DNA of 64,000 nucleotides from a virus: positions 115,976 through 179,975 of the IMG/VR virus record IMGVR_UViG_3300026488_000012, one strand, 5' to 3'. Of the stretch, positions 610-63,856 are shown piece after piece (positions within the stretch are counted from its first letter, which is position 1; each line of letters opens with the position of its first letter). Under the pieces are notes generated by a model that saw nothing but the letters and a program-made list of their open reading frames with translations, made no database searches and was not told where the DNA came from. A program made the position numbers and the translations under genes.

Positions 610-1800
610 ATGGAAAGAATAAATGAGTTTTATAAAGATATATTAGAAGCTTTAGGTTTAGTTGTAGATGAAAAAGGAAGAATATTCGTTAAAACGGGTA
701 AAACTCTTACCCCTCTTGTCATGGATGGTTTACAATTTGTGTTACCTACTAAAGAGAATATAGAAAATCTTATAATCAAAGATGAGAACGGTAAATATAA
801 AGCTGCTTATAGATTTTTCAATCCAGCATACGAGGACCCTATTAAAGGAGTAGATGTATCTCTTAATAAACTAAGAGAGATTATGTATAGAAGATTAGAG
901 AATAGAGTTGTTTCCATTATGGAAGTATTAATAAATATCGCTATGGGCGAAGCAGCTAGCCCAGGCGCTATAGAATTTATAGAATTACTAAACAGGTATA
1001 AAAACTCAAACATTAAGAAACTCGTAGATACGGGTATCTTAGATGCATTAAGAGCTCTCTATAAAAACAGCACCAGCTCTAAAAATCCATTAGATAATTT
1101 CTTACATATATATCTTCAGAAAGGTACTACCATCAATAATGAAAAGTATAATAAGATAGCTTCTACTCAATTCCATATGTATAATAGACTCATAGACTTT
1201 AAAGTAAAGCAAGACGATATTAATGGAATTAAATTAAGAAATAAAGACAAAGGAGCTATTTTATCAGGATACGAATATATATTCAAAGATGTTGATGAGC
1301 TCATTAAAGGCATCATCATAGGTAGTAAAAACAATGTAGCACCTGGACTACATTCATTATTGCTAACCTATGACAAATTAGTCGATAAGACTAATAAAGC
1401 TATAGAAGATATTAAGGAAGATATTGAAGAAGAATTGTTTGTAGAACTTAAGCTAAGGAAGTTGAAAATAAATGTAAATGATTTAGATAAGTTCTTAACT
1501 GAACTCAAGGAAGATTTAAAATTCATACCTAAAGATTCTGAAATCGAGCAAATGATTCAGCAACAAACTACTATAGGTTATGTAACGCCTAATAGAAAAA
1601 CAGTACAACCTAATCAACAAACGACTCAATCTGAACTAGACCCTGTTGAACTTGCTGCTATGGAATCAGTAAACGAACCTGTGACTATGACTGGCGGATT
1701 CGTTAATCCTATGACACCGGTACCTCAACCACAACAAATGAATAATATTCAATCACAAGTAAGTAACCAGGGTGATTATGATCCTGTACTAATGATGTAA
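610..1800 (+). CDS. Unknown protein with Pro/Gln-rich C-terminal tail
   Basis: This is a 396-residue protein. I chose ATG 610 because it follows GGAG (599-602) with good spacing; the frame is open upstream to 580 but without a ribosome site. Residues 1-310 are mostly charged, helical sequence. The last 80 residues are low-complexity and rich in Q, P, N and T, then end in a methionine-rich tail. Such a layout is common in phage structural or scaffold-like proteins, but there is no motif that fixes a function. It is followed closely by the small gene at 1821 and seems to belong to the same transcript as the partial gene before it. Confidence 0.8.
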   Translation: MERINEFYKDILEALGLVVDEKGRIFVKTGKTLTPLVMDGLQFVLPTKENIENLIIKDENGKYKAAYRFFNPAYEDPIKGVDVSLNKLREIMYRRLENRVVSIMEVLINIAMGEAASPGAIEFIELLNRYKNSNIKKLVDTGILDALRALYKNSTSSKNPLDNFLHIYLQKGTTINNEKYNKIASTQFHMYNRLIDFKVKQDDINGIKLRNKDKGAILSGYEYIFKDVDELIKGIIIGSKNNVAPGLHSLLLTYDKLVDKTNKAIEDIKEDIEEELFVELKLRKLKINVNDLDKFLTELKEDLKFIPKDSEIEQMIQQQTTIGYVTPNRKTVQPNQQTTQSELDPVELAAMESVNEPVTMTGGFVNPMTPVPQPQQMNNIQSQVSNQGDYDPVLMM

Positions 1801-1820
1801 ATTAATATAAGGAGACAGTG

Positions 1821-2015
1821 ATGAGACAAACTATGACAGTTGATAATAAAGGAAATATCATTCTGCTTACAGAGAGGAATAATAACCTCTCTGTTAATTA
1901 CAAAAATATAAAGTACAGTAACTTTTCAGAGTTCATGAAAGACGCTTATGGTGTCGATGAAAATGCTTCATCTATAGATGAAGCTATGAAAGCGATTGAA
2001 AAATATAATAAATAA
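1821..2015 (+). CDS. Small unknown protein (64 aa)
   Basis: ATG 1821 lies 6 bases after GGAG (1811-1814); a GTG at 1818 is in frame but too close to the ribosome site. The short protein has a beta-like N-terminal half (alternating hydrophobic and polar residues up to about residue 35) and a helical acidic C-terminal half. Nothing is recognised. It is the last gene of the first transcript: the stop codon TAA overlaps the left arm of a perfect 26-base palindrome that acts as terminator. Confidence 0.65.
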   Translation: MRQTMTVDNKGNIILLTERNNNLSVNYKNIKYSNFSEFMKDAYGVDENASSIDEAMKAIEKYNK

Positions 2016-2039
2016 CACGTGACTATATAGTCACGTGTT
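2014..2039. terminator. Bidirectional terminator
   Basis: A perfect 26-base palindrome (arms AACACGTGACTA and its complement) lies between two convergent genes and is followed on the plus strand by a T-rich tract (2041-2060). The minus-strand gene at 2052 also runs into it. Confidence 0.85.
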
Positions 2040-2051
2040 ATGTTTATTTTT

Positions 2052-2408
2052 TTATTCTTTATATTTAACGAGATAATCGTTATATAGGTCTTGTAGTATC
2101 TCACCTTTTATTATCTTAAGTTTTGTAGGTAGCTTACCTCTTTCAAAATCTATCTTAAAATCATAATTACTTAGATTGTTTATTCTAATATTAGGATAGA
2201 TATATACATCAGGTATTTTAAATTTAGTCTTAATAAGTCCTCTTAAGTCTCTTATCCATTTATAAACTTCATATGGTTCTATTGTTACTATATCAACCAT
2301 ATCGTCCGTTATATAACCGGATGCTATTATATTCTCCCAGTAATTTAACAATCTTTCATCAAGTTGAGGATTATTATAATTAGTATAATCAGATAAAACG
2401 GATAACAT
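2052..2408 (-). CDS. Unknown protein (118 aa)
   Basis: The start is fixed by AAAGGA about 8 bases upstream of the ATG (complement of 2406-2408). The 118-residue protein is mildly acidic with several Tyr, Asn and Ile residues; residues 60-100 look beta-rich. No family is recognised. It forms a short minus-strand unit with the 78-residue gene at 2480, although a strong hairpin (2449-2480) lies between them and may terminate most transcripts coming from the upstream gene. Confidence 0.7.
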   Translation of the reverse strand: MLSVLSDYTNYNNPQLDERLLNYWENIIASGYITDDMVDIVTIEPYEVYKWIRDLRGLIKTKFKIPDVYIYPNIRINNLSNYDFKIDFERGKLPTKLKIIKGEILQDLYNDYLVKYKE

Positions 2409-2448
2409 ATCTAAGTCCTTTCTTTTTTTAATTCACTAAAAAAGAAAT

Positions 2449-2480
2449 ACATCTATGAGACCGTTAAGTCTCATAGATGT
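2449..2480 (-). terminator. Terminator after the minus-strand gene at 2480
   Basis: Arms of 13 bp (2449-2461 and 2468-2480, loop CGTTAA) are followed on the minus strand by a T-rich tract. The stem reaches into the stop codon of the gene it terminates. Confidence 0.85.
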
Positions 2481-2716
2481 CATAGTTTCTCTTCTAGATT
2501 ACTTACAATAAAATATGTACCGTTTGTCTCTACATTCTCTTCTAAGTGTGTTATTACACCGCATATATCTTTAAATTTAGTATTAGGTGCATAGTACATC
2601 CAACCATCTTCTCCTGGCTTTAAGAATCTCAATAACACCCTACTGTCGTTTATTGGTTTATTTGTTTCAAATTCTACTGTAAACTTAGCTCCTGTAACTG
2701 ATTCCAAATGTAACAT
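2480..2716 (-). CDS. Small unknown protein (78 aa)
   Basis: This 78-residue protein starts at the complement of 2714-2716, after AAGGAGG on the minus strand. The sequence looks like a small beta-rich domain with GEDGWMYY near residue 37; it is not recognised. It is transcribed divergently from the lytic transglycosylase gene at 2839, with about 120 bases between them that must hold promoters for both directions. Confidence 0.7.
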   Translation of the reverse strand: MLHLESVTGAKFTVEFETNKPINDSRVLLRFLKPGEDGWMYYAPNTKFKDICGVITHLEENVETNGTYFIVSNLEEKL

Positions 2717-2781
2717 ACATACCTCCTTATTGATTTTTTTACACCTTATTAGGTATATCTTAATTTTTTTATAAATTTCAT

Positions 2782-2804
2782 TTATATCTTACTGAGATGT
2801 AATT
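2782..2804 (+). promoter_or_regulatory. Phage promoter-like motif
   Basis: TATCTTACTGAGATGTAAT matches the recurring motif (TATATTACTAAAATGTAA) found upstream of many transcription units here. It is followed by an A-rich leader and AAAAAAGGAG before the gene at 2839. Confidence 0.6.
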
Positions 2805-2838
2805 AAATAAACAAAAAAAAAGAAAAAAGGAGTTGAAA

Positions 2839-3384
2839 ATGAGATTCTTATTTATTTTAATTTATACGTTAACCCTATATGGGAAAACAATGAATACGAC
2901 TGAAATATCAGTCGTACATAAAGATAGGAGACTGGTAAATGAGTATTATCAAGAGTTAAAAAACCTGTCTGATGACCAGAAATTCTGGTTGAGTGAGGTG
3001 TACAAGACCTGTCTAGAGTATGATCTAGGTTATACTTGCGTAGCGATAGCTTGGGAAGAATCCAAGTTTAATAAATGGGGAGATAACGAAGCAGGTGACT
3101 ACGGTTTAATGGGTATAAACCTATACTGGTACATGATAGACAACGGACTTAATTATAGAAACAAATATAGGAGAATAGAAGTCCGCACTAGGTTAATAAG
3201 AGATAGTTACTATAACTTAAGGTACTCTATATCTAAGCTTATAAAATTAAGAAAGAAGCATAAGAACAACTGGTTTAAAATATGGGGTTGTTATAACGGA
3301 GGTACAACCCCTAACTATTACTATAGTAGAAGAATATTGAATAGAATTTATGCTTTTAGAAAATGGTTAAAGACAAATAACTAA
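2839..3384 (+). CDS. Lytic transglycosylase / lysozyme-like (SLT fold), exported
   Basis: The 181-residue protein begins with a hydrophobic N-terminal segment (residues 2-15) that looks like a signal peptide or anchor. The catalytic region resembles the soluble lytic transglycosylase family: E74 in EESKF (70-77), then GDYGLMGIN (86-94, equivalent to the GLMQIN motif) and a Tyr-Asn motif near the C-terminus (CYNGG). It would cleave the peptidoglycan glycan backbone, in lysis or in DNA entry. ATG 2839 is preferred to TTG 2833 because AAGGAG ends at 2832. Perfect inverted repeats lie inside the gene (2895-2916, 9 bp; 3284-3311, 8 bp). The 28 bases 2823-2850 are identical to 35573-35600, so the first codons match those of the gene at 35589. 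Confidence 0.8.
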   Translation: MRFLFILIYTLTLYGKTMNTTEISVVHKDRRLVNEYYQELKNLSDDQKFWLSEVYKTCLEYDLGYTCVAIAWEESKFNKWGDNEAGDYGLMGINLYWYMIDNGLNYRNKYRRIEVRTRLIRDSYYNLRYSISKLIKLRKKHKNNWFKIWGCYNGGTTPNYYYSRRILNRIYAFRKWLKTNN

Positions 3385-3398
3385 AAAGGAGGGTAAAG

Positions 3399-3638
3399 AT
3401 GAATAGAAGATATAAAATACTTCTAATGGCGTTAATAGTTATCCTAAGTGTATTATTAGTGATGTATGAAGACACAGAATATAAAAAAGTTAAAAAAGGG
3501 GAGTATGAGTTACAGTGTCTAATAAGAGATAAAGGATGGGTCACCATAGACCCGTCTAAAGTTGACGGACACGATCCAGAATCAGACTGTTGGTCTTTTA
3601 CTAACGGATGGGCTTGTAACTGTGAAGTTACAAAATGA
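3399..3638 (+). CDS. Small membrane-anchored protein with Cys-rich outer domain
   Basis: The 79-residue protein has one hydrophobic segment (about residues 7-23) after a basic N-terminus, which predicts an inner-membrane anchor or signal sequence with the rest outside. The C-terminal part has cysteines (C40, C58, C67, C69) and aromatic residues. It lies 14 bases after the transglycosylase gene with its own AAAGGAGG, so the two probably share a transcript and may cooperate at the envelope (lysis control, or spanin-like). This role is inferred from position only. A 7-bp perfect inverted repeat surrounds the last codons. Confidence 0.65.
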   Translation: MNRRYKILLMALIVILSVLLVMYEDTEYKKVKKGEYELQCLIRDKGWVTIDPSKVDGHDPESDCWSFTNGWACNCEVTK

Positions 3639-3659
3639 CCCCCCTATCTTTTTTCTTTT

Positions 3660-3684
3660 TATTATATACTGAGATTCAATATTT
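3660..3684 (+). promoter_or_regulatory. Promoter-like motif before a short non-coding RNA
   Basis: TTATATACTGAGATTCAAT resembles the recurring promoter motif but is less perfect. No gene follows before the terminator at 3705, so any transcript would be a small RNA. Confidence 0.35.
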
Positions 3685-3742
3685 ACCTCCTAATTTTATA
3701 GTTTATAGACTATAGGGATATCCCTATAGTCTATGTTTTTTT
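3675..3742 (+). ncRNA. Candidate antisense small RNA against RNA polymerase gene ribosome sites
   Basis: A short region without an ORF runs from a promoter-like motif to a strong terminator hairpin (3705-3734). It carries ATATTTACCTCCTAATTT (3679-3696), the exact complement of the ribosome binding site and start of the gene at 23886 (23870-23887, 18 nt). It matches the sites of the two RNA polymerase genes at 6048 (6034-6049) and 10227 (10213-10228) over 16 nt. Other genes in the window use different ribosome site contexts. The sequence facts are direct; that an RNA is made and represses translation is inference. The CCTCC core also equals the anti-Shine-Dalgarno of 16S rRNA. Confidence 0.45.
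3705..3734 (+). terminator. Terminator, perfect 30-base palindrome
   Basis: The palindrome has GGGATATCCC at its centre and is followed by GTTTTTTT. It ends either the transglycosylase transcript or the small RNA proposed just upstream. Confidence 0.85.
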
Positions 3743-3771
3743 AATAGAATTTTGTGTTGTAAAATATTTCA

Positions 3772-3796
3772 ATTACATTATATTAATTAGTAAAAA
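3772..3796 (+). promoter_or_regulatory. Weak promoter-like AT-rich motif
   Basis: ATTATATTAATTAGTAAAAA lies between the terminator and the dNMP kinase gene and partly matches the recurring motif. It is the likely place for the start of the next transcript. Confidence 0.3.
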
Positions 3797-3825
3797 AGGA
3801 CAAACTAACTAAAAGGAGAAGCAAT

Positions 3826-4440
3826 ATGAGCAAAAAGACAGTGATCGGGATTGTAGGGTATGATAATTGTGGTAAAGATACTTTTGCCAGATATCTAAAA
3901 GAAGAATTAATTAAAACTTACAACAGCAGAGTCGAAATACTACATTTTGCAGATATCTTAAAGAAACTTGTTTCTAATATTTTGGAAACAGATATTGATA
4001 CAATTGAACGGTTTAAGAAAGATAATGGTATTAAACCTATTAATATTGTATTTGACAATAGTAGCAGAGAATACACAATGAGAGATTTTATAATTAAAAT
4101 AGCTAAGACTGTAGTTAATGTTTTTGGTATTGATATTTTTGCAAGAGTAGTAGAACGAAATATACTAGAGTCTGAATCGGGTATATTTATTATACCAGAT
4201 GTAAGATTCTTAATAGAAGCAGAGATAATGAAAAAAGAGCTGGGAGGTATTTTAGTAAAGATAAATTCAGATATAGATGGTTGTAATAACACAGGTTATG
4301 AGTATGAAATATCGTTAATAGAAAAACATGGACTTATAGATCATTATGTCAAGTTTAAAAATTTAGAAGAATCTATAAGAGAGTCTAAACGTATAAGTGT
4401 AATAAACGAAATAAAAAATAAATTAAAGGATGAACAATGA
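3826..4440 (+). CDS. Deoxynucleoside monophosphate kinase (T4 gp1-like)
   Basis: The N-terminus carries a P-loop, GYDNCGKDT (residues 11-19), followed by a helix (FARYLKEEL), as in T4 gene 1-type dNMP kinases and related P-loop nucleoside monophosphate kinases. Around residue 120 there is FIIPDVRFLIEAE, matching the D-x-R segment of the family. The enzyme would phosphorylate dNMPs to dNDPs for phage DNA synthesis, working with the NrdAB and ThyX proteins encoded around 52-58 kb. Length (204 aa) is near the usual 200-240. It overlaps the next gene by ATGA, so translation of the two is probably coupled. Confidence 0.75.
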   Translation: MSKKTVIGIVGYDNCGKDTFARYLKEELIKTYNSRVEILHFADILKKLVSNILETDIDTIERFKKDNGIKPINIVFDNSSREYTMRDFIIKIAKTVVNVFGIDIFARVVERNILESESGIFIIPDVRFLIEAEIMKKELGGILVKINSDIDGCNNTGYEYEISLIEKHGLIDHYVKFKNLEESIRESKRISVINEIKNKLKDEQ

Positions 4441-4997
4441 GTATATCATATATAGTAAGATTTATAAATGGTGGAGAAGAGTGGTTTTCAGTTGTTGTGG
4501 ATGAGGATAACGAAGCTAACTTTAAGAATGGTTTAATAAAGACAGGTGATAATAGACTTTTTGATGATGAAGATACGGTCATACTCACATCTAAACTTGA
4601 TTTAGATGGAATCGCACATTTATTAGACGTGTGTATGTCTGATAGTAATGGCGGTAGAGATCATATCCTAATGAATACAAGACTTGTAAATAAAAACGAT
4701 CGCATAGCAGATGTACACGTGTCTATACTGGTTTACCTTACTATAGGAGCTCTAGAGATATTAGAAACACTATTAGGTAAACCGAATATTAATATAGATG
4801 AACTTATAAATGCTATAGACGATGGTGATGACGAGGTTATCGATATGGTGTACTCGTTAGTAAACACTATAGCTGCGTTAGATGCTTTAGAAGTATTAGA
4901 CGAGATGATTAAATATTATCCTATGTTGATGAAGTATGAAGAAACGATTAAAACAGTGAGAGAACACTGGAGAGAGTTATATGATAAAATTATGTAA
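4437..4997 (+). CDS. Unknown acidic protein (186 aa)
   Basis: The start codon overlaps the stop of the dNMP kinase gene (ATGA), which suggests translational coupling. The protein is strongly acidic and mostly helical after residue 75, with no recognised motif. It is followed after 12 bases by the gene at 5010 (AAAGGAG between). A role linked to nucleotide metabolism or the virion cannot be separated from sequence alone. Confidence 0.7.
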   Translation: MSISYIVRFINGGEEWFSVVVDEDNEANFKNGLIKTGDNRLFDDEDTVILTSKLDLDGIAHLLDVCMSDSNGGRDHILMNTRLVNKNDRIADVHVSILVYLTIGALEILETLLGKPNINIDELINAIDDGDDEVIDMVYSLVNTIAALDALEVLDEMIKYYPMLMKYEETIKTVREHWRELYDKIM

Positions 4998-5009
4998 AGG
5001 AGTATAGGT

Positions 5010-5879
5010 ATGTTGTTTAGTTATTCAGAGAAAGATATAGGAGACTATACTAAATGGTCTCCTATAAAAGAAATAAAAGAGCGTGTAGGTAATTTTATTT
5101 TTGCTATTGATAAAGATGGAGAGCTATACGGATATCTAACGAATGAAGATAACAAGACTTATAAAGCTGTAAATAGGGAAGGTTACTTTATAAAAGAGAC
5201 GATTGATTTAAGTTTTACATTTGTTATCTCTAATATAGAGGATGAGATTAATGATTTATTAGCTAATCCTAATGTTTTTATTAAGAGAATAAAGGATGAG
5301 TTATACGACAACAGAGATGAGATAAATAGTGGTGATGGTCATATTTTAAACGATAGTGTTATTGTAAAATTAAATACGGAATATCCACTGATAGATGACG
5401 ATGAAGATGAATTTAAAGAATCCACTCTGAGTAATACGTTAGCACAGTTAATAAAAGCAGGTCTTATTTTTTCTTTAGTCTTTACAAAGTCGTTAGGAGA
5501 TACGAGTAAACCTGTAATATATGATAAATTAAGTGTTGATAATAGAGAGATTATCCTTCCTCACTACGAATATAATTCTTCTGTTTTAATAGTTGATATA
5601 GATGAAACAGATAAAAATGTAATAGTACTTGGGAAAGGCTTAAATTTACATATTGACTCTAAAGTTGAAAAGCTACCAAAGGATTTATATTTCTTATTAC
5701 ATGTTTATCTAACTAAGTATGCTAATATTACAAAGGATAATCCTCTTAGTATTATCCTAACTAAAGAACTTATTAACGAATATGTATCTAACATATATAG
5801 TGTAGAACCATCGGAAGGATTATTAGTTAATGAAATGTCTAGAGTAGATATAGAGACTAACTTAGGTATAAGTATTTAA
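5010..5879 (+). CDS. Unknown protein (289 aa)
   Basis: ATG 5010 follows AAAGGAG with normal spacing. The 289-residue protein starts with a beta-rich domain (about residues 1-75), continues with acidic helical sequence around residues 80-140 and ends with mixed alpha/beta sequence. I do not recognise it. It is the last gene of the transcript with dNMP kinase; two inverted repeats (5886-5940 and 5945-5970) follow. Confidence 0.75.
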   Translation: MLFSYSEKDIGDYTKWSPIKEIKERVGNFIFAIDKDGELYGYLTNEDNKTYKAVNREGYFIKETIDLSFTFVISNIEDEINDLLANPNVFIKRIKDELYDNRDEINSGDGHILNDSVIVKLNTEYPLIDDDEDEFKESTLSNTLAQLIKAGLIFSLVFTKSLGDTSKPVIYDKLSVDNREIILPHYEYNSSVLIVDIDETDKNVIVLGKGLNLHIDSKVEKLPKDLYFLLHVYLTKYANITKDNPLSIILTKELINEYVSNIYSVEPSEGLLVNEMSRVDIETNLGISI

Positions 5880-5885
5880 ATATTT

Positions 5886-5970
5886 TGACGGTTATTCGGG
5901 TTATATAGTAATATATATTATGAACCGTCATATTCTTAGTGAGTCCTATAGAGCGATATCGCTCTATAGG
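5886..5970 (+). terminator. Double hairpin terminator region
   Basis: TGACGGTT (5886-5893) pairs with AACCGTCA (5933-5940). Directly after, a perfect 26-base palindrome centred on GCGATATCGC (5945-5970) is followed by a T-rich tract. No gene lies between 5880 and 6047; the rest of this gap holds the promoter and leader of the RNA polymerase gene. Confidence 0.75.
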
Positions 5971-5977
5971 GGTAATA

Positions 5978-6052
5978 TTTTTAATTTTAACTATATATAT
6001 TGTTATCTTACTAAAATGCAATAAAACTACAAGATTAGGAGGTAAATATGAG
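5978..6052 (+). repeat. 75-bp leader identical to that of the 10227 gene (copy 1)
   Basis: Bases 5978-6052 are identical to 10157-10231. The repeat covers the promoter-like motif (6003-6025), the untranslated leader, the ribosome site TTAGGAGG and the first five bases of the coding region. Both copies precede RNA polymerase subunit genes. Confidence 0.9.
6003..6025 (+). promoter_or_regulatory. Promoter-like motif of RNA polymerase beta-C gene
   Basis: TTATCTTACTAAAATGCAAT is a variant of the recurring motif. The same sequence lies at 10182-10204, and a looser form at 22727. Confidence 0.6.
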
Positions 6053-8288
6053 TAATGAATTTTACAAAATTAAGGATATTATAAATAGATACGCAAAGTA
6101 TTTTAAAGATAACAACTCTGAGTTAAGACTGAGATATGAGTTATTTTCAATTCACGCGCTTAACCCGTTTGTTATATATAACTCTTCTCCAAGAGGATTG
6201 ATGATGGCGTCGCATGTATCACAGATACTTGTTATAGATAATCCTGAGAAAGACATAATACAGACGCCTACTATGAATGATCTTAGTAGATATGTTATAT
6301 CTAAGAAGTTTCTACATGATGCAGAGATAATTGATGTAATAAGTAGATATAGTAATCCATCCATAGGTAAAGAGGTAGAGTATGATATCATCTATAGAAG
6401 ACTAGATGACGGTAAGGTTGACGTAATGAAAATACCATTATTTAATAAATTTCACACCTATTTTGGATTCCTATACAAATTCCTATTAAATCATAGAGAG
6501 TTATACCCGGGAACAATAGTTAAAAAAGATACATACGTAGCAGTACCGCCTACTGTTATAGATGTTGATGACGAGGGCAATTTTGACTATGGGTTTGGTT
6601 TAAATGCTAACGTAGCAATGATAACTATACCGGAGACTGCAGAAGATGGTATAGTGATATCCGAATCATTCGCTAAGAAACTTAAATTTAAGACTATAGA
6701 GAAAAGAGTTTTATTCGTAGAACCTGATGAGGTATTACTTAATCTTTATGGAAATGATGAACATTATAAGCCTTTCCCTGAGATAGGAGAGGAAATAAAC
6801 CCAGACGGTGTTTTAATGGCAAAGAGAAAGATAGATGATGAGATAATAATAGGACTATTGTCTAAGGATGAGTTAAGAAGAGTTAATCCTATGTTCGACG
6901 AGGCTGTATATTGTAAAGGAAAAGTTATAGATATTAAAGTCTATAAAAATTATAAGAACAAGATGATACCTATGGAACCAGACGAGTTTATTAACAAATA
7001 TGTACAGGGTATGAGTGATTACCATAGAAGAATAGTTGATATATACAACGTTCTTAAAAGATCAGACCCTAACTTAGAAATGACTCCACTGTTTATAAAA
7101 TATGTATCGAACAGTATAGGTTATTTAGAATCAGAAGAGTATAGAAGAAAGAAAGTATATAGAAAGGAGGAGATAGAACTTTACAGAATAGAAATAGAAG
7201 TAGTTAGGGAAATAATACCTACTAAAGGATTTAAGTTGTCAGACTTCCACGGGGGTAAATCTGTGATAGTGGATGTATGGAAAGACGAAGATATGCCAGT
7301 AGATGAATTTGGAAATAGAGCTGATATCATAGCTGACCCGTCTGCTACCGTATCCAGACTTAACATAGGTAGGATGTACGAGAGGTACATAAAGGCTGCG
7401 TCCAGAGAAGCTAAGAGACAGCTTATAAATAAAATAAGAGAGTTACTTAATCTAACTGAAGTATCTTCTCAAGATGTCGATATATTATCAGACGAACAAG
7501 TAGTTAATTTATTTAAAGAATATGTAATAGAATTTGTAAATATGTTCGATACTGAACAAAAAGCTGCTTACAACCAAGTATTACAGGGTAATGATATTGT
7601 CTCTATGAGAGAGATAATTAAAGAGATAGTAGATGAGGAGTTCTATATCTATCTAACTCTGGATAATCCGAAAAGAGCTTATGAGATAGTGGTAGATATA
7701 GAGTTGTCTAAATTTAAACCTCCATATGGTAAGGTTAAGTTCAATTATTATGGTACTCCTGTGGAAACTAAAAATCCGGTAATGATAGCACCGATGTATT
7801 ACATACTTCTATCTAAAATAGCAGATGACTATCTCGTAACATCTTCTGCTAAGTTAAATCATTTCGGTACTCCTATTACTGTATCATCAGTGGATAAACA
7901 CAGGTTACCGCATAGGAATTCTCCTACAAGAGTATTAGGAGAGACTGAAACTAGACTATATGCGTCGTATTGTGGTAGAGAGTTTCTAGCCGAGTTAAGA
8001 AATAGAAATTCGTCTATAGAACAACACGCTACAGTCTATAGAAATATATTAAACGCAGATGAACCTACAGATATAGATGATGTTATACCGAGAGACGTTT
8101 ATCCGTATAAGAACGATAGACCTCTAACTATGTTAGAAGCATTATTTCATTCAGTAGGACTGGATTTGAAATATACGGAAGATATAGATTTACTTCACGA
8201 GCCACAGCAATTAAAGACTAATGAAAATCTCGGTGATGATATAGAAATATACGAGGAAGATAAATCATCTTCAGATAGAGAGGGTTAA
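6048..8288 (+). CDS. Phage multisubunit RNA polymerase, beta subunit C-terminal half
   Basis: Several blocks of cellular RpoB are visible in order. LNPFVIYNSSPRGLMMASH near residue 38 matches the beta segment with the conserved R..M.....Q pattern. EDGIVISESFAKKLKF near residue 200 matches the EDSI-x-ISE block. HGGKSVIVDVWKDEDMP with NIGRMYE near 390-450 matches the HG-K-G and SRMNIGQ blocks. HFGTPIT and RVLGETETR near 605-650 match the region with RxGExE before the C-terminus. The first half of beta is missing; a matching N-half-like protein is encoded at 23886. A split beta is typical for jumbo phage RNA polymerases. The gene transcribes phage DNA as part of the virion or non-virion enzyme. 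A 75-bp leader is shared with the beta-prime gene at 10227. Confidence 0.85.
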   Translation: MSNEFYKIKDIINRYAKYFKDNNSELRLRYELFSIHALNPFVIYNSSPRGLMMASHVSQILVIDNPEKDIIQTPTMNDLSRYVISKKFLHDAEIIDVISRYSNPSIGKEVEYDIIYRRLDDGKVDVMKIPLFNKFHTYFGFLYKFLLNHRELYPGTIVKKDTYVAVPPTVIDVDDEGNFDYGFGLNANVAMITIPETAEDGIVISESFAKKLKFKTIEKRVLFVEPDEVLLNLYGNDEHYKPFPEIGEEINPDGVLMAKRKIDDEIIIGLLSKDELRRVNPMFDEAVYCKGKVIDIKVYKNYKNKMIPMEPDEFINKYVQGMSDYHRRIVDIYNVLKRSDPNLEMTPLFIKYVSNSIGYLESEEYRRKKVYRKEEIELYRIEIEVVREIIPTKGFKLSDFHGGKSVIVDVWKDEDMPVDEFGNRADIIADPSATVSRLNIGRMYERYIKAASREAKRQLINKIRELLNLTEVSSQDVDILSDEQVVNLFKEYVIEFVNMFDTEQKAAYNQVLQGNDIVSMREIIKEIVDEEFYIYLTLDNPKRAYEIVVDIELSKFKPPYGKVKFNYYGTPVETKNPVMIAPMYYILLSKIADDYLVTSSAKLNHFGTPITVSSVDKHRLPHRNSPTRVLGETETRLYASYCGREFLAELRNRNSSIEQHATVYRNILNADEPTDIDDVIPRDVYPYKNDRPLTMLEALFHSVGLDLKYTEDIDLLHEPQQLKTNENLGDDIEIYEEDKSSSDREG

Positions 8289-8485: not shown

Positions 8486-8992
8486 ATGAAAAAAATTAAA
8501 GTGGAGTACGATTATAAAGAAATTTCTTCCCCTGATATTGACGTTATAAAGGAGATAAGAATTGGCGAGAAAGTAGTCTCGCCAATAGCAGTAAAAGGAG
8601 TAGAATCCATTAGTCCCAACAGATTATTTAGCAATGTAACTAGTGCAAGAGCAATAGTTCTTGCTTATCTTTTTGAGGATGAGATAAATAATTTGTTGCC
8701 TTACCCTATGATGATTTTCGATAATAGAGGAACAAATGTGGTCGCTACGGAAAGAGAGGAAGATGAATTTCTCTCTTATGATTATGTAGATATGACAGGG
8801 GTTAATTGTGGAAGAAGTCAACCGACTTATAAGATATTTGAGTTAACCGGGGACCTAATGACCGATGTTTATCACATCATTAACCCTCCGGTGAGGATAG
8901 ATTATATCTATCCTAAGTTTAGAGCGGATATTCTTTATTTAGGGAATCAGGCGTTCGCTCTACTTGATGTAGAATTTATAAAACCATATTAA
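8486..8992 (+). CDS. Unknown protein behind structured leader RNA (168 aa)
   Basis: ATG 8486 follows AAAAGGAG right after helix P1 of the leader RNA. The protein has a hydrophobic stretch near residues 55-75 and conserved-looking Gly, Asn and Pro positions, but no recognised domain. The coding sequence is rich in perfect inverted repeats, for example 8561-8586 (9 bp), 8895-8913 (8 bp) and a nested set around 8845-8893. Its leader type is shared with the gene at 26834 and an unseen gene to the right of the window. Confidence 0.75.
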   Translation: MKKIKVEYDYKEISSPDIDVIKEIRIGEKVVSPIAVKGVESISPNRLFSNVTSARAIVLAYLFEDEINNLLPYPMMIFDNRGTNVVATEREEDEFLSYDYVDMTGVNCGRSQPTYKIFELTGDLMTDVYHIINPPVRIDYIYPKFRADILYLGNQAFALLDVEFIKPY

Positions 8993-26576: not shown

Positions 26577-26605
26577 TAATAGAATATCGAGTTTAATAAA
26601 CAGTT

Positions 26606-26640
26606 AAAAATAACCGGGAGTTATCTCGGTTATTTTTTTT
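26606..26640 (+). terminator. Terminator after the 26118 gene
   Basis: AAAAATAACCG (26606-26616) pairs with CGGTTATTTTT (26627-26637), followed by more T. Confidence 0.85.
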
Positions 26641-26653
26641 TATTTTTTTATAA

Positions 26654-26680
26654 TTATATATTACTAAGATACGTGATTAA
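26654..26680 (+). promoter_or_regulatory. Promoter-like motif before structured leader RNA copy 2
   Basis: TTATATATTACTAAGATACG matches the recurring motif; the structured RNA follows about 25 bases downstream. Confidence 0.6.
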
Positions 26681-26701
26681 AAAAAAACCCGTAAGTCCTT
26701 T

Positions 26702-26816
26702 TTGAAAGAGTACTGCTCTCCTGGAGAAGGAGGAGACTACGACTTATCCCGTTGTTCTGTGGGAAGTCAGAAAGTCTCCTCGACGAAGGAGAGATGTGGA
26801 AAATCAAGAAGGCAGG
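26702..26816 (+). ncRNA. Structured leader RNA, copy 2
   Basis: The folding seen at 8351 is repeated with other bases. P1 is CCTTTTTGA with TCAAGAAGG. P2 is CTCTCCT with AGGAGAG. P3 is GAGGAGACT with AGTCTCCTC (9 bp). P4 is GACT and TCCC with GGGA and AGTC, interrupted by the same two-base bulge. Joining segments AGTACTG, AGAA, GACGA and GTGGAA are unchanged. Helix bases differ while pairing is kept, which is direct evidence of RNA structure under selection. It ends shortly before AAAAGGAG of the next gene. Confidence 0.8.
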
Positions 26817-26833
26817 GGTAAAAGGAGCCAAAA

Positions 26834-29020
26834 ATGGCTAAATTAATAGTGAAAAGAGATAGAATTGTATTTAAAAAAGAAACTATCTTAGAAAATAGAT
26901 CTTTGACAATTAAAGGTCTAAAAAGATTTCTCAACAAGAGAAATCTTAAAATAAAAGAAAAAGATTTAAGCGCAGCATATGCTGCGTATACTGGAGAAAA
27001 TTCTCCAGTTAAAGTTCCTGTTATAACAGGGAAAAGAAGAAAAGGAGTTGTTTCTAGGGAAGAAAGAATCCCTAGAAACACTCCTGTTAAAAGTCTAAGG
27101 GGGGATATCCTCCCTAAAAAAGTCTCTTTAAAAGAGAGACTTAAAGCGGCTGTGAAAAAAGCAAAAGAAGACGGTCATAGATTCGCAGCCGTTAGAACCG
27201 CATACGGTCTTATCGAAGTTCGTAGAAGAACGAGCTTTGATGAGACCTATGAAGTTTTTATGGAGGTCTTTAAAGAAAAAAGGGCTGAAATACTAGCGTA
27301 TGAAAAAGCGCTAAGTGAGGACTTGTCCCATCCTCACTTAGCGAAACATTATATTAAAGAGTTTGGGGACAAAATTATCCCATACTTTAAGCTGGTTGAT
27401 ACAATGGCTTTATCCTACGGTATGAATCCAAGGAACGTGTGGGATTCATGCGGAGTATGGGGAATATCTCCTGACCTATTCCTATTCAAGATTGGTGACA
27501 AAGAACATCTTCACAACATAAAAGTTGTGAAGATGTTCGTGGAGATAGCCCTAGAAACTTTAAGAGTTAGGGGGAGGGTGGATCGTATTCCAAGTATATT
27601 CCACCCATCAGTATTTTTCGAACAAAGAGAAAGAATGAAAGAATACAAAGAAAAAATTGATTCTAATATAGTCTATCCAGGGATCGAAGAGTATGAAATA
27701 TTTATCTCGATCTTCTGGAGACTATATAAAAAATACGGAGTAGACGGAATTCCGTCACTACGCATTACCCAGTTAATGAACTGGGATGAAACCTGGGATG
27801 AATTACTGGGTTGGAAAGACGAGGATCTATTACCTCTAACGCTAATGTTAATAGATTCGGACTTCTACTCCATCGATAAAGTTAAAACCGGTGAGGGTAG
27901 AAGAGGCGGCTATTATAAGATAAATTTCAGAAAACTAAATAACTGGAAGAAACTTAGCAAGAGGGAAAAAGCTAAGTTTCTTCCAGCGCCATTAGCTTGG
28001 AGACTCCTATTCAATAGGAAAGCTCCAGATGGAATCGAATTTCGTGATCCTAATCCTGTTAACTTCACGAGAGCTTCTCAAAGGGCTTTTCGTGAGTTAG
28101 CAGAAATCATCAAACGCGACGACAGGGGATATTTTGCTGCTAACATTAAAGCAGCGTATCACCTTAGTCTCGCGTTTGGTGATATGAATACAGTGAAAAG
28201 ATGGCTAAACGCACTAGGATTGAAAGTGGATGCGCTAGGCATTCACGACGCGTTCGTAAACGCCCACCATTTCTTAAAGCTTAAATATAAAGAAAAATGG
28301 GCGGCGCTCCTAATCAAATTCCCTGGGCTCAGAAAAGTTACATGGGCTTTTAGGGAGTTTGAGAGGGAGTTTGGACGCGTAGCAACTAAAACTGAAATCA
28401 GTAGCTATGCCGCGACTAAAAAATATAGGAATGTAAAATTAAAAGATGTCGCGGAGATAGCTGCTGAGTTAAAATTATCTCAGAGGGAATTTGAGGATTA
28501 TCAAAACTTTTTCCTCAAAACCCCTGAGAAAAAATCTACTATGTTACCAAATGTGGTTGTCGAGAAAGGTGAATATAAATTTAGAAAACTCGATGACCAC
28601 GATAAAATAGGCCCGTTCTTAGGGTTGTTGACAGACTGTTGTCAACACCTCCATAACGCAGGTGACACATGTGCTAAGGCGGGATGGAGGGACCCTGAGA
28701 GCGGGTTCTATGTCGTCGAGAAAGACGGCAAAATAGTTGCACAATCTTGGGCGTGGAGAGGTAAAAAAGGCGAGCTTTGCTTTGACTCTATAGAAGGGCT
28801 CGGTAATGTTAATGTTAATATAATTGCCGAGCTATATAAAGAAGCAGCTCGTCAGTTAGTCGGCAAAATGGGGATCACTCGCGTGACTGTGGGTGATACC
28901 TCATATGGCTTAACTGAGGATGTAAAACAAATCCTCGGTGGAGTCAACCGCGAGTCAGCGGTCATGATCAAAAAGGTGTCTTATACAGACGCTGATGATC
29001 AGTGGCTCTTAGCCGACTAA
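26834..29020 (+). CDS. Large unknown protein; coding sequence is a chain of inverted repeats
   Basis: This is a 728-residue basic protein. Residues 1-130 are Lys/Arg-rich, the middle is helical and rich in Trp, and the C-terminal 150 residues hold a compact domain: LGLLTDCCQHLHNAGDTCAKAGW, then GFYVVEKDGKIVAQSWAWRG and LCFDSIEGLG, then a long helix and strand. This end resembles PcfJ-like or GNAT-like folds seen in mobile elements, but I am not sure. G+C looks higher than in neighbours. The gene contains dozens of perfect inverted repeats in a row, for example 26923-26947 (10 bp), 27309-27343 (12 bp), 27503-27538 (15 bp) and 27942-27985 (16 bp). It has the structured leader RNA and its own promoter. 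Confidence 0.75.
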   Translation: MAKLIVKRDRIVFKKETILENRSLTIKGLKRFLNKRNLKIKEKDLSAAYAAYTGENSPVKVPVITGKRRKGVVSREERIPRNTPVKSLRGDILPKKVSLKERLKAAVKKAKEDGHRFAAVRTAYGLIEVRRRTSFDETYEVFMEVFKEKRAEILAYEKALSEDLSHPHLAKHYIKEFGDKIIPYFKLVDTMALSYGMNPRNVWDSCGVWGISPDLFLFKIGDKEHLHNIKVVKMFVEIALETLRVRGRVDRIPSIFHPSVFFEQRERMKEYKEKIDSNIVYPGIEEYEIFISIFWRLYKKYGVDGIPSLRITQLMNWDETWDELLGWKDEDLLPLTLMLIDSDFYSIDKVKTGEGRRGGYYKINFRKLNNWKKLSKREKAKFLPAPLAWRLLFNRKAPDGIEFRDPNPVNFTRASQRAFRELAEIIKRDDRGYFAANIKAAYHLSLAFGDMNTVKRWLNALGLKVDALGIHDAFVNAHHFLKLKYKEKWAALLIKFPGLRKVTWAFREFEREFGRVATKTEISSYAATKKYRNVKLKDVAEIAAELKLSQREFEDYQNFFLKTPEKKSTMLPNVVVEKGEYKFRKLDDHDKIGPFLGLLTDCCQHLHNAGDTCAKAGWRDPESGFYVVEKDGKIVAQSWAWRGKKGELCFDSIEGLGNVNVNIIAELYKEAARQLVGKMGITRVTVGDTSYGLTEDVKQILGGVNRESAVMIKKVSYTDADDQWLLAD

Positions 29021-29037: not shown

Positions 29038-30354
29038 CTAAATTATGTCATTCAGGTCTAATTTAACAAGATTTAGACTTGAGTCGTGCATTGCTTTCAT
29101 ACTTGAATTAAGTACTTTACCGAACATATCTATAACCATTAGCGCTATACCGTTTTCATAATTTTTCATATCCTCACCCATACATACTTTACATCTACCG
29201 TGTTTGTCTAGTTTACAGTACATAGGGGTTCTTAGTTGTACTAGTTTACCTATATATTTTTTAGCTTCTTCTTCAGTAGATATCAACACAGGCTTACCTT
29301 GTTTTAATATATATCTACCTTTTAATTCTTTATAATTCATATCCGTAACATTTAAGTTATAATACATTTTACTACCGCAGTCTGTATCTAATACTTTCAT
29401 ATCGATAGTTGCTCTCAATCCCTGCTTAGCTCCGTATCCACCTTTCTGAGTTTCAAATCCCCTTTTAAAACTACCCTCTCTAATATCGTTATAGAGAACT
29501 GTTATTTTTTCATCATCTATATCCCATCCCTCTGCTAATGATTCAGGAACAACATGTGCTTTACCATCTTTAAAATAAAAACTACCTCCGTGTCCATAAC
29601 TCAGATACATCTTTTTCATAGCGTTTAAGACTTTACCTTTTACATATGTTTTAATAGTAGGATCGTCTTTTAGATACTCTTTCTCATATTCTAATAACTT
29701 CTTATCTATCTCAGCTACCTTATCCAGTTTTTCTAATACATTATCTCCGTATTTTTTCTTGTATTCGTTTATTAATTTCTCTCTGTATTCTTTAATGTTA
29801 GGAGGAGGTTGCGTGGTCTTTTCTGTAGATGACACTGCTATCAATCTGTTTAATCTTGACAAATAGATAACATAATCTACGAACTTCTCGTACTCAGCTA
29901 TAGTTATATGTGTTTTACCTTTTTTCTCTATCTCGTCGTTAGATATAAGAAGATTCTTAATGATTGTATCTTCTATATCGCCTACTGTGAATGGTGCGTT
30001 AATATAAGCTACCTTATTATTAAAAGGTTTATAGATTACTATAAAGTTAGCAAGAAGTCTACCAAATGTAGTATCCATGTCTTCATCTATAAAAGGTAAG
30101 AATCCTTTAGGTAGATGTAAAGGTGTTTTAGGCTTTAGTAAAGGTTCGTTACTATAATCAGTATTCAATTCTAAAAGTTCGATTTCATTAGTTTCAGTAT
30201 TCTTTATTTTTCCATAAAAAACATTATCTTCCACCTTTACGAATTCATCTTCTGTACCATCTGGTAATAATGATAGCATATCGACTAACCAGTCGAAGTT
30301 TAATGGATAGTCGTTTTCAAATGCGTATTTTAAGTATTTTAAAATATTATTCAT
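29038..30354 (-). CDS. Second RNA polymerase beta-prime C-terminal part (divergent)
   Basis: The C-terminal 220 residues match the same beta-prime area as the 10227 protein: FKRGFETQKGGYGAKQGLRATIDMKVLDTDCGSKMYY corresponds to F-x-x-GL ... [23 protein letters not shown] ... DCG, followed by RCKVCMG as the CxxC-G segment and SSMKAMHDSSLNL near the end. Jumbo phages typically encode two RNA polymerases, one packaged and one made in the cell, so two beta-prime C parts of different sequence fit that. The N-terminal 200 residues are not recognised. AAAGGA precedes the ATG; the gene overlaps the upstream minus-strand gene by 8 bases. Confidence 0.7.
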   Translation of the reverse strand: MNNILKYLKYAFENDYPLNFDWLVDMLSLLPDGTEDEFVKVEDNVFYGKIKNTETNEIELLELNTDYSNEPLLKPKTPLHLPKGFLPFIDEDMDTTFGRLLANFIVIYKPFNNKVAYINAPFTVGDIEDTIIKNLLISNDEIEKKGKTHITIAEYEKFVDYVIYLSRLNRLIAVSSTEKTTQPPPNIKEYREKLINEYKKKYGDNVLEKLDKVAEIDKKLLEYEKEYLKDDPTIKTYVKGKVLNAMKKMYLSYGHGGSFYFKDGKAHVVPESLAEGWDIDDEKITVLYNDIREGSFKRGFETQKGGYGAKQGLRATIDMKVLDTDCGSKMYYNLNVTDMNYKELKGRYILKQGKPVLISTEEEAKKYIGKLVQLRTPMYCKLDKHGRCKVCMGEDMKNYENGIALMVIDMFGKVLNSSMKAMHDSSLNLVKLDLNDII

Positions 30355-53760: not shown

Positions 53761-53787
53761 TTTATATATTACTAAAATGTAATAAAA
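53761..53787 (+). promoter_or_regulatory. Best copy of the recurring promoter motif
   Basis: TTTATATATTACTAAAATGT followed by AATAAAAA is the consensus form. It contains the spaced inverted repeat TTAC-N6-GTAA. It precedes the two acetyltransferase-like genes. Confidence 0.7.
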
Positions 53788-58371: not shown

Positions 58372-58396
58372 TTTATATATTACTAAGTTGTAAAAA
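58372..58396 (+). promoter_or_regulatory. Promoter-like motif of the methyltransferase gene
   Basis: TTTATATATTACTAAGTTGT matches the consensus motif closely and is followed by an A-rich leader. Confidence 0.65.
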
Positions 58397-61998: not shown

Positions 61999-63075
61999 AT
62001 GGATAAAAGAAAATGTACACCAGGAGTATGTTTAGAAAAATGTTTGGAATGTAACAAAAAGGGACTAGGCTGTTGTGATACAGCTGTTCCTTTTAAAGAC
62101 GAGGAACTAGCAAAAGTTCATTTTGAAAATAGTCTTATAAGCGAAATGAGTGATGAGATACAGATAGTGAGAGGTGATGATAATTACTTATACGTGGTGA
62201 GTAAAGAAGATGTGACCGGTAGTAAAGTGGTTTTATCGGATAGACCTTGTGTTTTCTTCGACGGAGAAACATATAAATGTAAAATATATGATCACAGACC
62301 CGAAGCCTGTAGAAAGTATGGTGAAGTAAATAATCCTTGTATTTTTACAAATATAGACGTTGAGGATGTTAAAAACATTGAATTAGGAAAAGAAAAAATA
62401 AGAGACATCAAAATAGAAAGGATTCTATCTAAGCACAAGAATAGATTAGTGAGGTCATATTTGTCTCTCAAATTTCCTAAAATCAAGAAGTTTAGTAAAA
62501 AAGATTTGAAAAACATGAAAGAAGAGATGCTGTTATATCTTGTTATAAATGCTATTAATTTATTAGAGGACAAAGAACAAGGTAGTAGCGTTTGTCCAGA
62601 GTTGTTTGAATTTACATATAAATATCAATTAGTTATGATAAACAATACGCAGATATCTTCTATTAAATTAAAACAAATGAGTGCTAACCATGATGCTTTT
62701 AAAGGATTTGATAGAACCTATAATATCCTTAATAGGAAGTTCGTAATGAGAGACCCTATGTATCTCCAGATATTAGTAGGTAAACTCAAAAGAGTATTGA
62801 GCGGTGTAGAAGTATCAGAGATAAAAGAAATACCAAAAAATAGTGTTATAGGTAGAGTAGGTGAAGCTGTTGTTTTACTAGACTTATGGAAAACTAAGTA
62901 TAAGAACAAGTCCAATAGTTATAAGGGTATAATAAATGAGGACAATATATATAAACTAAAGAAATGGATTAATAAAGAGTTAGGAAGCGAGAGTTTAATA
63001 AATCCAGCAACAGGGTTTATTAAATTATACGAAAATGGTGAAAGAATTTACAAAGCTATATTAAAACAAAAATAA
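61999..63075 (+). CDS. YkgJ-like cysteine-cluster protein with large C-terminal part (358 aa)
   Basis: The N-terminal 120 residues carry a cysteine cluster: CxxxxC...C..C then CC (residues 6-27), later RPCVFFDGETYKCKIYDHRPEACRKYG (about 83-109), which is the YkgJ-type zinc/iron-chelating pattern (CxxF ... C-x-IYxxRPxxCR). In bacteria such proteins bind a metal cluster and may act on proteins. The rest (130-358) is basic and helical, not assigned. AAAAGGAG precedes the ATG. Two small genes follow in the same unit. Confidence 0.7.
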   Translation: MDKRKCTPGVCLEKCLECNKKGLGCCDTAVPFKDEELAKVHFENSLISEMSDEIQIVRGDDNYLYVVSKEDVTGSKVVLSDRPCVFFDGETYKCKIYDHRPEACRKYGEVNNPCIFTNIDVEDVKNIELGKEKIRDIKIERILSKHKNRLVRSYLSLKFPKIKKFSKKDLKNMKEEMLLYLVINAINLLEDKEQGSSVCPELFEFTYKYQLVMINNTQISSIKLKQMSANHDAFKGFDRTYNILNRKFVMRDPMYLQILVGKLKRVLSGVEVSEIKEIPKNSVIGRVGEAVVLLDLWKTKYKNKSNSYKGIINEDNIYKLKKWINKELGSESLINPATGFIKLYENGERIYKAILKQK

Positions 63076-63090
63076 TCGAAAAGGAACTAT

Positions 63091-63543
63091 ATGGAAAAAC
63101 ATACATTAAGGAATGAAAGAACGGGTAAAATCAGATATCTAGAAGATGTAGAAAGAATATACGAAGACGAATACCCGATTTATTATGCCTGGGCTATAGA
63201 ACTGGATTTTACTGTAAATAAGAAAAATATGAAATACTTCTATAAGACCATTAAAAGATACATGGTCGATGAGTATAGTATGTTTTCACATACAGTAATT
63301 GACGGTATTAAAATAATTGACTATGTTTTAGGTAATAAGTATAGAAAAATAGATTCTATACTTAGATATCAGAAAGCAATTAAGCATGATACTGATTATC
63401 CTGAGTTAGAAAGTGTTATTATACTTAATCTTATCGAAGAACCTGTTTTGGTAGAATACCTGGAGGACATAAAAACGATGATGGATGAAATCCTATACAA
63501 GATGAAGGATGTAGGATTAATAAATAAACTACAAGGAGGCTGA
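63091..63543 (+). CDS. Unknown protein (150 aa)
   Basis: AAAAGGA precedes ATG 63091. The protein is charged and helical with many Tyr, Asp and Lys (KYRKIDSILRYQKAIKHD near 96). It ends one base before the next gene, so they are coupled. No function recognised. Confidence 0.65.
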   Translation: MEKHTLRNERTGKIRYLEDVERIYEDEYPIYYAWAIELDFTVNKKNMKYFYKTIKRYMVDEYSMFSHTVIDGIKIIDYVLGNKYRKIDSILRYQKAIKHDTDYPELESVIILNLIEEPVLVEYLEDIKTMMDEILYKMKDVGLINKLQGG

Positions 63544-63544
63544 T

Positions 63545-63856
63545 ATGGATAAAAAAGTAGTTGGAGCAGATATTACTCTAGAGAGAGTTACGTTGGTAGA
63601 AAAGGTTAAATTAGATGGTAGACACAGGTTAATAGTTGCACATATAAAGGTAAAATTCACAGATAACGATGTTAAAAGTAGCTGGGTAGAATTGTACGAT
63701 GTTACTTATAGTAACCCTAAGTATGTAATGGAGCAACTTGGAAAACTTAAAAAACAATTAGAGGGAAATAAGTACATCTATAAAGGACCTAAGAAATTGA
63801 GATATGATATACTAAGAAGAATGTTTATAAATAACAGCAAGATAAAAGAACTGTAG
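63545..63856 (+). CDS. Unknown basic protein (103 aa)
   Basis: GGAGG precedes ATG 63545. The N-terminal half is beta-like (DITLERVTLVEKVKLDGRHR), the C-terminal half helical and basic. Not recognised. It ends directly before a perfect palindrome terminator. Confidence 0.6.
   Translation: MDKKVVGADITLERVTLVEKVKLDGRHRLIVAHIKVKFTDNDVKSSWVELYDVTYSNPKYVMEQLGKLKKQLEGNKYIYKGPKKLRYDILRRMFINNSKIKEL

Follow-up and report, generated by a model that had tools for sequence, protein, structure and literature searches.

RNA viruses with genome-scale ordered RNA structure (GORS) carry serial short-range stem-loops in their coding sequence, mostly as short duplexes, with energies far below those of shuffled sequence; foldedness is kept while the individual pairings are poorly conserved (PMC7642675). 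MFED values given for such viruses are about 15% for SARS-CoV-2 and 23.4% for the highest vertebrate RNA virus known to the authors (PMC7642675), figures obtained with differing method details that compare only loosely with the 55% reported here. Type I toxin mRNAs such as those of Hok and TisB are strongly folded transcripts encoding a single protein (PMC7708055, PMC6733600). Selection for folding in the middle of coding sequences is also a weak general trend in bacteria (PMC7063772). Our literature search found no description of RNA-virus-scale coding-region structure in a single DNA-phage gene, where it is unexpected.

The window analysed here is a 64-kb stretch (bases 115976-179975) of a 180-kb DNA virus record, and among its ORFs are several with matches to families of RNA polymerase beta subunits from phiKZ-type phages. 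No tRNA genes were found in the window, and no Rfam family matched it above gathering score; low-threshold Rfam matches were rejected as single-hairpin noise, many of them on the opposite strand. The gene at 26834-29020 has a raised G+C content (0.40 vs about 0.30) and is flanked by a terminator upstream, which as predicted sets this cargo gene apart from the upstream gene, and by a convergent gene downstream. The features referred to below are as follows.

6048-8288: match to an RNA polymerase beta-subunit family (phrog_3295)
26606-26637, plus strand: predicted intrinsic terminator (14-bp stem with a T run) belonging to the gene upstream
26655-26664, plus strand: promoter-like box TATATATTAC, resembling the phiKZ motif TATATTAC
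26672-26833, plus strand: untranslated leader, strongly folded, ending in the ribosome-binding site AAAGGAG
26834-29020, plus strand: coding sequence (CDS) for 728 aa, with folding along the entire mRNA (codon-shuffle z -17, MFED 55%)
26834-27298, plus strand: first ~155 codons, low protein conservation, mostly low-confidence protein, most folded coding stretch (z to -8.4)
27503-27538, plus strand: 15-bp hairpin, six outer pairs kept in the homologue L004, at least four of them changed on both sides
27943-27986, plus strand: 16-bp perfect hairpin
28136-28155, plus strand: stem at the same codons in L004 (two pairs changed on both sides) and partly in L017 from Caldilineae
28307-28369, plus strand: longer stem, at the same codons in L004
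28415-29017, plus strand: conserved C-terminal domain, LGxxTxCCQHxxxxGxxCA...IxAQSWxW...FDSxE, GNAT fold in the predicted model
29038-30354: match to an RNA polymerase beta-subunit family (phrog_2962)

The folding energy of the gene was -35.9 kcal/mol per 120 nt, compared to -23.1 in codon shuffles that hold protein and codon usage fixed (z -17.2), while the other 43 ORFs tested in the window ranged from z +1.0 to -5.2. The z value was -21 when the shuffle also preserved the codon-boundary dinucleotide and -19 when shuffling was confined to 60-codon blocks. The folding signal is therefore real and far beyond chance, and it holds under all three codon-preserving nulls. These energies bear out the proposal of the sequence-only reading that codon choice turns the mRNA into a string of hairpins, which predicted values outside the range of such shuffles. 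Among sliding 120-nt windows, 77% had a dinucleotide-shuffle z below -2 inside the gene and 18% in the flanks. MFED was 55% for the CDS and 58% for the putative transcript; with the same script it was 31% and 23% for the MS2 rep and mat genes, 3-7% for four other genes of the window and 9% for one phiKZ gene. The folded zone takes in the leader (about 26690-26820); region 26585-26860 has a dinucleotide-shuffle z of -6.0. Downstream, the zone stops with the stop codon at 29020, so that it matches the extent of the putative transcript. Within the coding region, the strongest folding coincides with the poorly conserved N-terminal ~155 codons.

The MFE fold consists of local hairpins. Perfect stems of at least 9 bp numbered 7, against a codon-shuffle mean of 0.83 and a maximum of 3, in line with the excess of inverted repeats that the sequence-only reading had reported. 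When G-U pairs were counted, helices of at least 9 bp numbered 37, against 11-32 in five shuffles, making the bare helix count a weaker statistic than energy; 35 of the 37 are at most 15 bp, and the longest is 18 bp with G-U. The individual stems listed earlier were largely recovered: those at 26923-26947 (10 bp), 26990-27009 (9 bp) and 27503-27538 (15 bp) and the palindrome at 26971-26986 are present in the sequence, and the MFE fold contains 27044-27084 as a bulged stem as well as both stems with G-U pairs (28553-28600, 28798-28832). The stem at 27309-27343 is also present, with a length of 13 bp rather than 12, and the 16-bp stem lies at 27943-27986, one base from the 27942-27985 given for it. 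The hairpin loops have A-richness as their only common feature, and no loop sequence motif is shared beyond it, which disfavours the earlier suggestion of a recognition platform in so far as this would use a repeated loop motif.

Folded coding RNA was also seen elsewhere in the record, which beyond the window was sampled as two 20-kb stretches. Window positions 8486-8992, without a family match, and a MYG1-type exonuclease homologue (PF03690) at L050:2761-3609 (record 62761-63609) each differ from their codon shuffles by about -7.8 kcal/mol per 120 nt.

Single internal mismatches in stems were used to tell RNA-level from DNA-level pairing. In eight family members pooled, G-U mismatches numbered 53, against 22.8 expected from codon shuffles, and A-C mismatches numbered 22, against 24.4. 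The G-U excess stems from the window gene, L004, L017 and L008 (44 vs 13.2), with little or none in the other four; the window gene alone had 15 vs 4. This excess of G-U over A-C in the strongly folded members argues for selection on the sense RNA, not on DNA palindromes, and agrees with the RNA-level reading made earlier. Folding of the sense strand of the window gene (mean z -4.0) exceeded that of the antisense strand (-2.8), as it also did in L008 and L017; L004 hardly differed and was near symmetric. Antisense folding of the window gene was strong too (z -13.9). Mismatch counts, strand difference, a folded zone that reaches from the leader to the stop codon, and the promoter-like boxes are four lines of evidence for the sense RNA. 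They show that the sense-strand mRNA, leader and coding region alike, is under selection for pervasive short-range folding, while the start site stays open.

A search of viral contigs with the single window protein found no relative. Homologues are present in one other IMG/VR phage (L004, 45% identity), in Microcystis phages, in Bacteroidota prophages, where one member (L043) sits between terminase and integrase, and in scattered bacterial contigs. The same record holds a paralogue of 641 aa, G000:C1:31596-32699 (L002:709-2634), which is 40% identical in the C-terminal half, folds more mildly (z -7 to -9) and has a short leader that is unfolded. This second copy, the folded leader of the window gene and its raised G+C had escaped the sequence-only reading. 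Searches of the family or class to which G001, G002 and G004 belong added no members to those in hand. Per 120 nt, the folding excess was -13.8 for L004, -13.0 for L017 (a Caldilineae contig, 67% GC) and -12.6 for the window gene, followed by the MaMV-DC gene (-7.2 to -7.6), L008 (-6.2), L007 (-5.5), L002 (-4.9) and L005/L044 (-3.9). Folding is thus weaker in the Bacteroidota prophage and cyanophage homologues than in L004 and L017, and the trait is lacking in distantly related members with ankyrin or DUF4116 repeats, which, like those longer than 900 aa, lie between -2.5 and +0.3.

In a tree built on the 200-residue domain, in which several supports are modest, the window gene, L004, L002 and L017 form one branch (87/85), with L007 and L008 near it and the cyanophage gene apart. 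The strong-folding label required 4 changes on this tree, against 6.5 in shuffles (12/500 as low). This clustering, together with a G+C span of 0.35-0.67, indicates that the trait belongs to the gene and not to one phage: folding travels with part of the gene family through unrelated phages and bacteria. Because the trait follows the family in this way, the folded RNA probably does something for the gene itself.

Several further features accompany these homologues. In L010-L032, from Alphaproteobacteria, Micavibrio, Legionella, Obscuribacterales and rumen Clostridia, the C-terminal GNAT-like domain closes larger proteins of effector-like architecture, several of which carry ankyrin or DUF4116 repeats; these members mostly are without folded mRNA, L017 being the exception. 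Beside the Clostridia homologue in L028, an unrelated 356-aa ORF on the minus strand has a codon-shuffle folding z of -11. In MaMV-DC, where the homologue of the window gene is ORF68, the nearby ORF66 and ORF65 (L042:6319-7107 and 1225-6258, both minus strand) have folding excesses of -7.7 and -4.2 per 120 nt. A small ORF that lacks annotation (about 50-60 aa, MCPYQTYLHT...) occurs three times in MaMV-DC (L003:1433-1628, 3624-3822 and 5477-5670), and in one case it is fused with ORF68 at the 3' end of the latter. In Ma-LMM01 it occurs once (L035:4104-4299), and the intervening segment with ORF68 is absent. A mobile-element boundary in the MaMV phages was considered and rejected, as the direct repeats are copies of this small gene.

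We compared the pairings themselves among relatives. Between the window gene and L004, 39 of 557 codon-aligned pairs are kept, against a shifted background mean of 2.5 and maximum of 14. The best conserved stem, 27503-27508 with 27533-27538, keeps 6 of 6 pairs, at least 4 of them changed on both sides. The covariation that the sequence-only reading had expected among homologues is therefore found in a few stems, this one foremost, but most pairs are not kept in L004, indicating that selection is mainly for foldedness and not for a fixed hairpin set. The cyanophage homologues, at 86-87% nucleotide identity, have all kept their folding (dE -5.5 to -8.3), although about 12-16% of their pairs are broken. 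Double compensatory changes among them numbered 7, against 2.7 expected and a permutation maximum of 7-8, a slight excess that is only suggestive. Permuting only the changed codons gave z -1.2 to -6.1 for the cyanophage homologue; shorter neighbouring genes reached up to -4.1, so this substitution test is weak gene-specific evidence. The overall pattern fits selection for foldedness as such, plus a few fixed stems.

The box TATATATTAC resembles the phiKZ-group promoter motif TATATTAC (motif table, PMC7058600). In an early transcription unit of phiKZ type, an AT-rich early promoter box would lie about 10 nt upstream of the point where the transcript begins. A related box, TATACATTAC, lies upstream of the L004 homologue, and TATATATTAG lies upstream of the paralogue L002. 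No over-representation of the TATATATTAC motif was found across the whole window, and we therefore infer from position that the boxes before these three genes may be promoters. Exact TATATATTAC boxes also occur at window positions 53763-53772, 58374-58383 and 5908-5917 (minus strand); the first two share the context TTTATATATTACTAA and lie about 30-36 nt upstream of ORFs 53808 and 58414. The unpaired fraction of the start-codon region exceeded that of the CDS in the window gene (0.59 vs 0.26), L004 (0.77 vs 0.28) and L002 (0.84 vs 0.30). In L008, L007 and L017, whose transcript starts are guesses, the start region does not clearly exceed the leader in openness; it is paired in L008 and intermediate elsewhere. 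The open start of the window gene, together with the good ribosome-binding site in front of ORF 26834, argues for a translated message with a folded body.

The protein had no match beyond chance in Pfam, PHROGs, NCBIfam or PADLOC, and no RNA-binding domain is recognisable in it. Its AlphaFold2 model is good only in the conserved C-terminal domain (residues 528-728, pLDDT mostly above 85), which carries a CCQH...C and AQSWxW signature. The model of this domain matches GNAT enzymes in the PDB (Foldseek E 2.7e-4, probability 1.00), and the domain accordingly has a GNAT fold as modelled; the acyl-CoA-binding loop R/Q-x-x-G-x-G/A had no clear match in the alignment inspected by eye. The first ~155 residues are not conserved and mostly of low model confidence, and the N-terminus is helical and unplaced. 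The model of the Pseudarcicella homologue (L007), of modest confidence (mean pLDDT 63), matches a PcfJ-like phage protein (Foldseek probability 0.99) and also many acetyltransferases and GNAT proteins. The window protein resembles phage GNAT proteins such as Rac to the extent that models of modest confidence allow. The L007 model provides a likeness to PcfJ-like phage proteins, but the window protein differs from the PcfJ family in having no Pfam or PHROG sequence match, and the PcfJ profile PF14284 found nothing by sequence in the window record.

The reading we prefer, at a probability of roughly 0.38, is that a cargo gene of phages, standing alone and moving horizontally, encodes a helical protein with a GNAT-type C-terminal domain through a pervasively folded mRNA that is protected yet translatable. 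An mRNA nearly without single-stranded stretches would survive and escape recognition by single-strand-directed activities, such as RNase E-type decay, RNase toxins or type III or VI CRISPR. Most helices, at 16 bp or less, are short for RNase III. The message could thus survive long enough for translation while other RNAs of the cell are being cleaved or silenced, perhaps through the activity of the gene's own product, and ribosomes would load at the open start and then unwind the short hairpins. Protection, its timing and the link with the product's activity are what we infer. In favour of protection are the strength of the folding under all three nulls and by MFED, the G-U excess in stems, the match between folded zone and putative transcript, the open start, the turnover of pairs while foldedness stays, the loops without a motif, and the clustering of the trait on the gene tree across G+C 0.35-0.67. 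Against it, a generally useful protection should be visible in other early genes, yet few fold, and more weakly (8486-8992; L050:2761-3609), and the starts of L008, L007 and L017, at their guessed transcript starts, are not clearly more open than the leader.

A possible but doubtful alternative gives the folded RNA a working role of its own: double-stranded or hairpin-rich RNA would be bound by the gene's product or by a virion protein, and the mRNA would be coated, stored or carried with the particle. The trait tracks the gene family over unrelated hosts and base compositions, the folding exceeds that of MS2, whose RNA is packaged, and folding peaks in the N-terminal coding part, where the protein is poorly conserved; however, the loops have no common motif, the protein no recognisable RNA-binding domain, and most pairs are unconserved. 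More doubtful is a dual-purpose transcript, both message and structured RNA handled (protected, stored or delivered) by its own product or the virion. If this were true, the mobile cargo of DNA phages would include a globally folded RNA like that of RNA viruses.

Translational pacing, in which serial short hairpins slow ribosomes for proper multi-domain folding or a low rate, is unlikely. It would account for an open start with a folded body and has a precedent in the weak bacterial trend (PMC7063772), but T4 and phiKZ genes average only about -2 kcal/mol per 120 nt compared to -12.6 here, the untranslated leader is folded too, and homologues as long or longer are without the trait. Still less likely is a latched toxin-type mRNA, whose folding silences a harmful product until RNA processing, as in type I toxin mRNAs. 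The gene is monocistronic and its placement moron-like, as seen in a Bacteroidota prophage where it lies alone near the integrase, and phage proteins of GNAT type are able to shut down the host (Rac, PMC7552054). However, the three members that have a recognisable promoter box show an open start, no antisense RNA was found, the whole CDS is structured and not the initiation region alone, and type I toxins are small hydrophobic peptides. An origin at the DNA level, by template switching or by selection of palindromes as single-stranded DNA, is very improbable, as the strong antisense folding, almost symmetric in L004, would suit it but a strand-symmetric process predicts equal numbers of G-U and A-C mismatches, of which only G-U are in excess, and folding begins at the putative transcript leader.

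The trait follows one family across phages and bacteria of different base composition, and some relatives lack it. The family therefore offers a natural experiment on the causes of global RNA folding, in which a single gene can be recoded instead of a whole RNA virus.

The window gene shares some traits with each of several known systems. The window transcript is strongly folded and encodes one protein, as type I toxin mRNAs do, but its product is a 728-aa protein with a predicted GNAT fold, its whole CDS is structured with a start predicted to be open, and no antitoxin RNA was found for it. The direction is that of general mid-CDS folding selection in bacteria (PMC7063772), but the size is about six-fold that of an average T4 or phiKZ gene. 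The closest likeness in form is to GORS: the energy lies well below order-shuffled controls over the whole CDS (MFED 55%), consecutive short-range stem-loops are present and long duplexes avoided, and pairings are poorly conserved among relatives while foldedness is kept. However, GORS is a trait of RNA genomes, whereas here it is one transcript of a dsDNA phage, following a single gene family, and the 180-kb record around the gene is that of a DNA virus with genes for RNA polymerase beta subunits. The window gene works like GORS but lacks its defining context, and we do not count it as a member.
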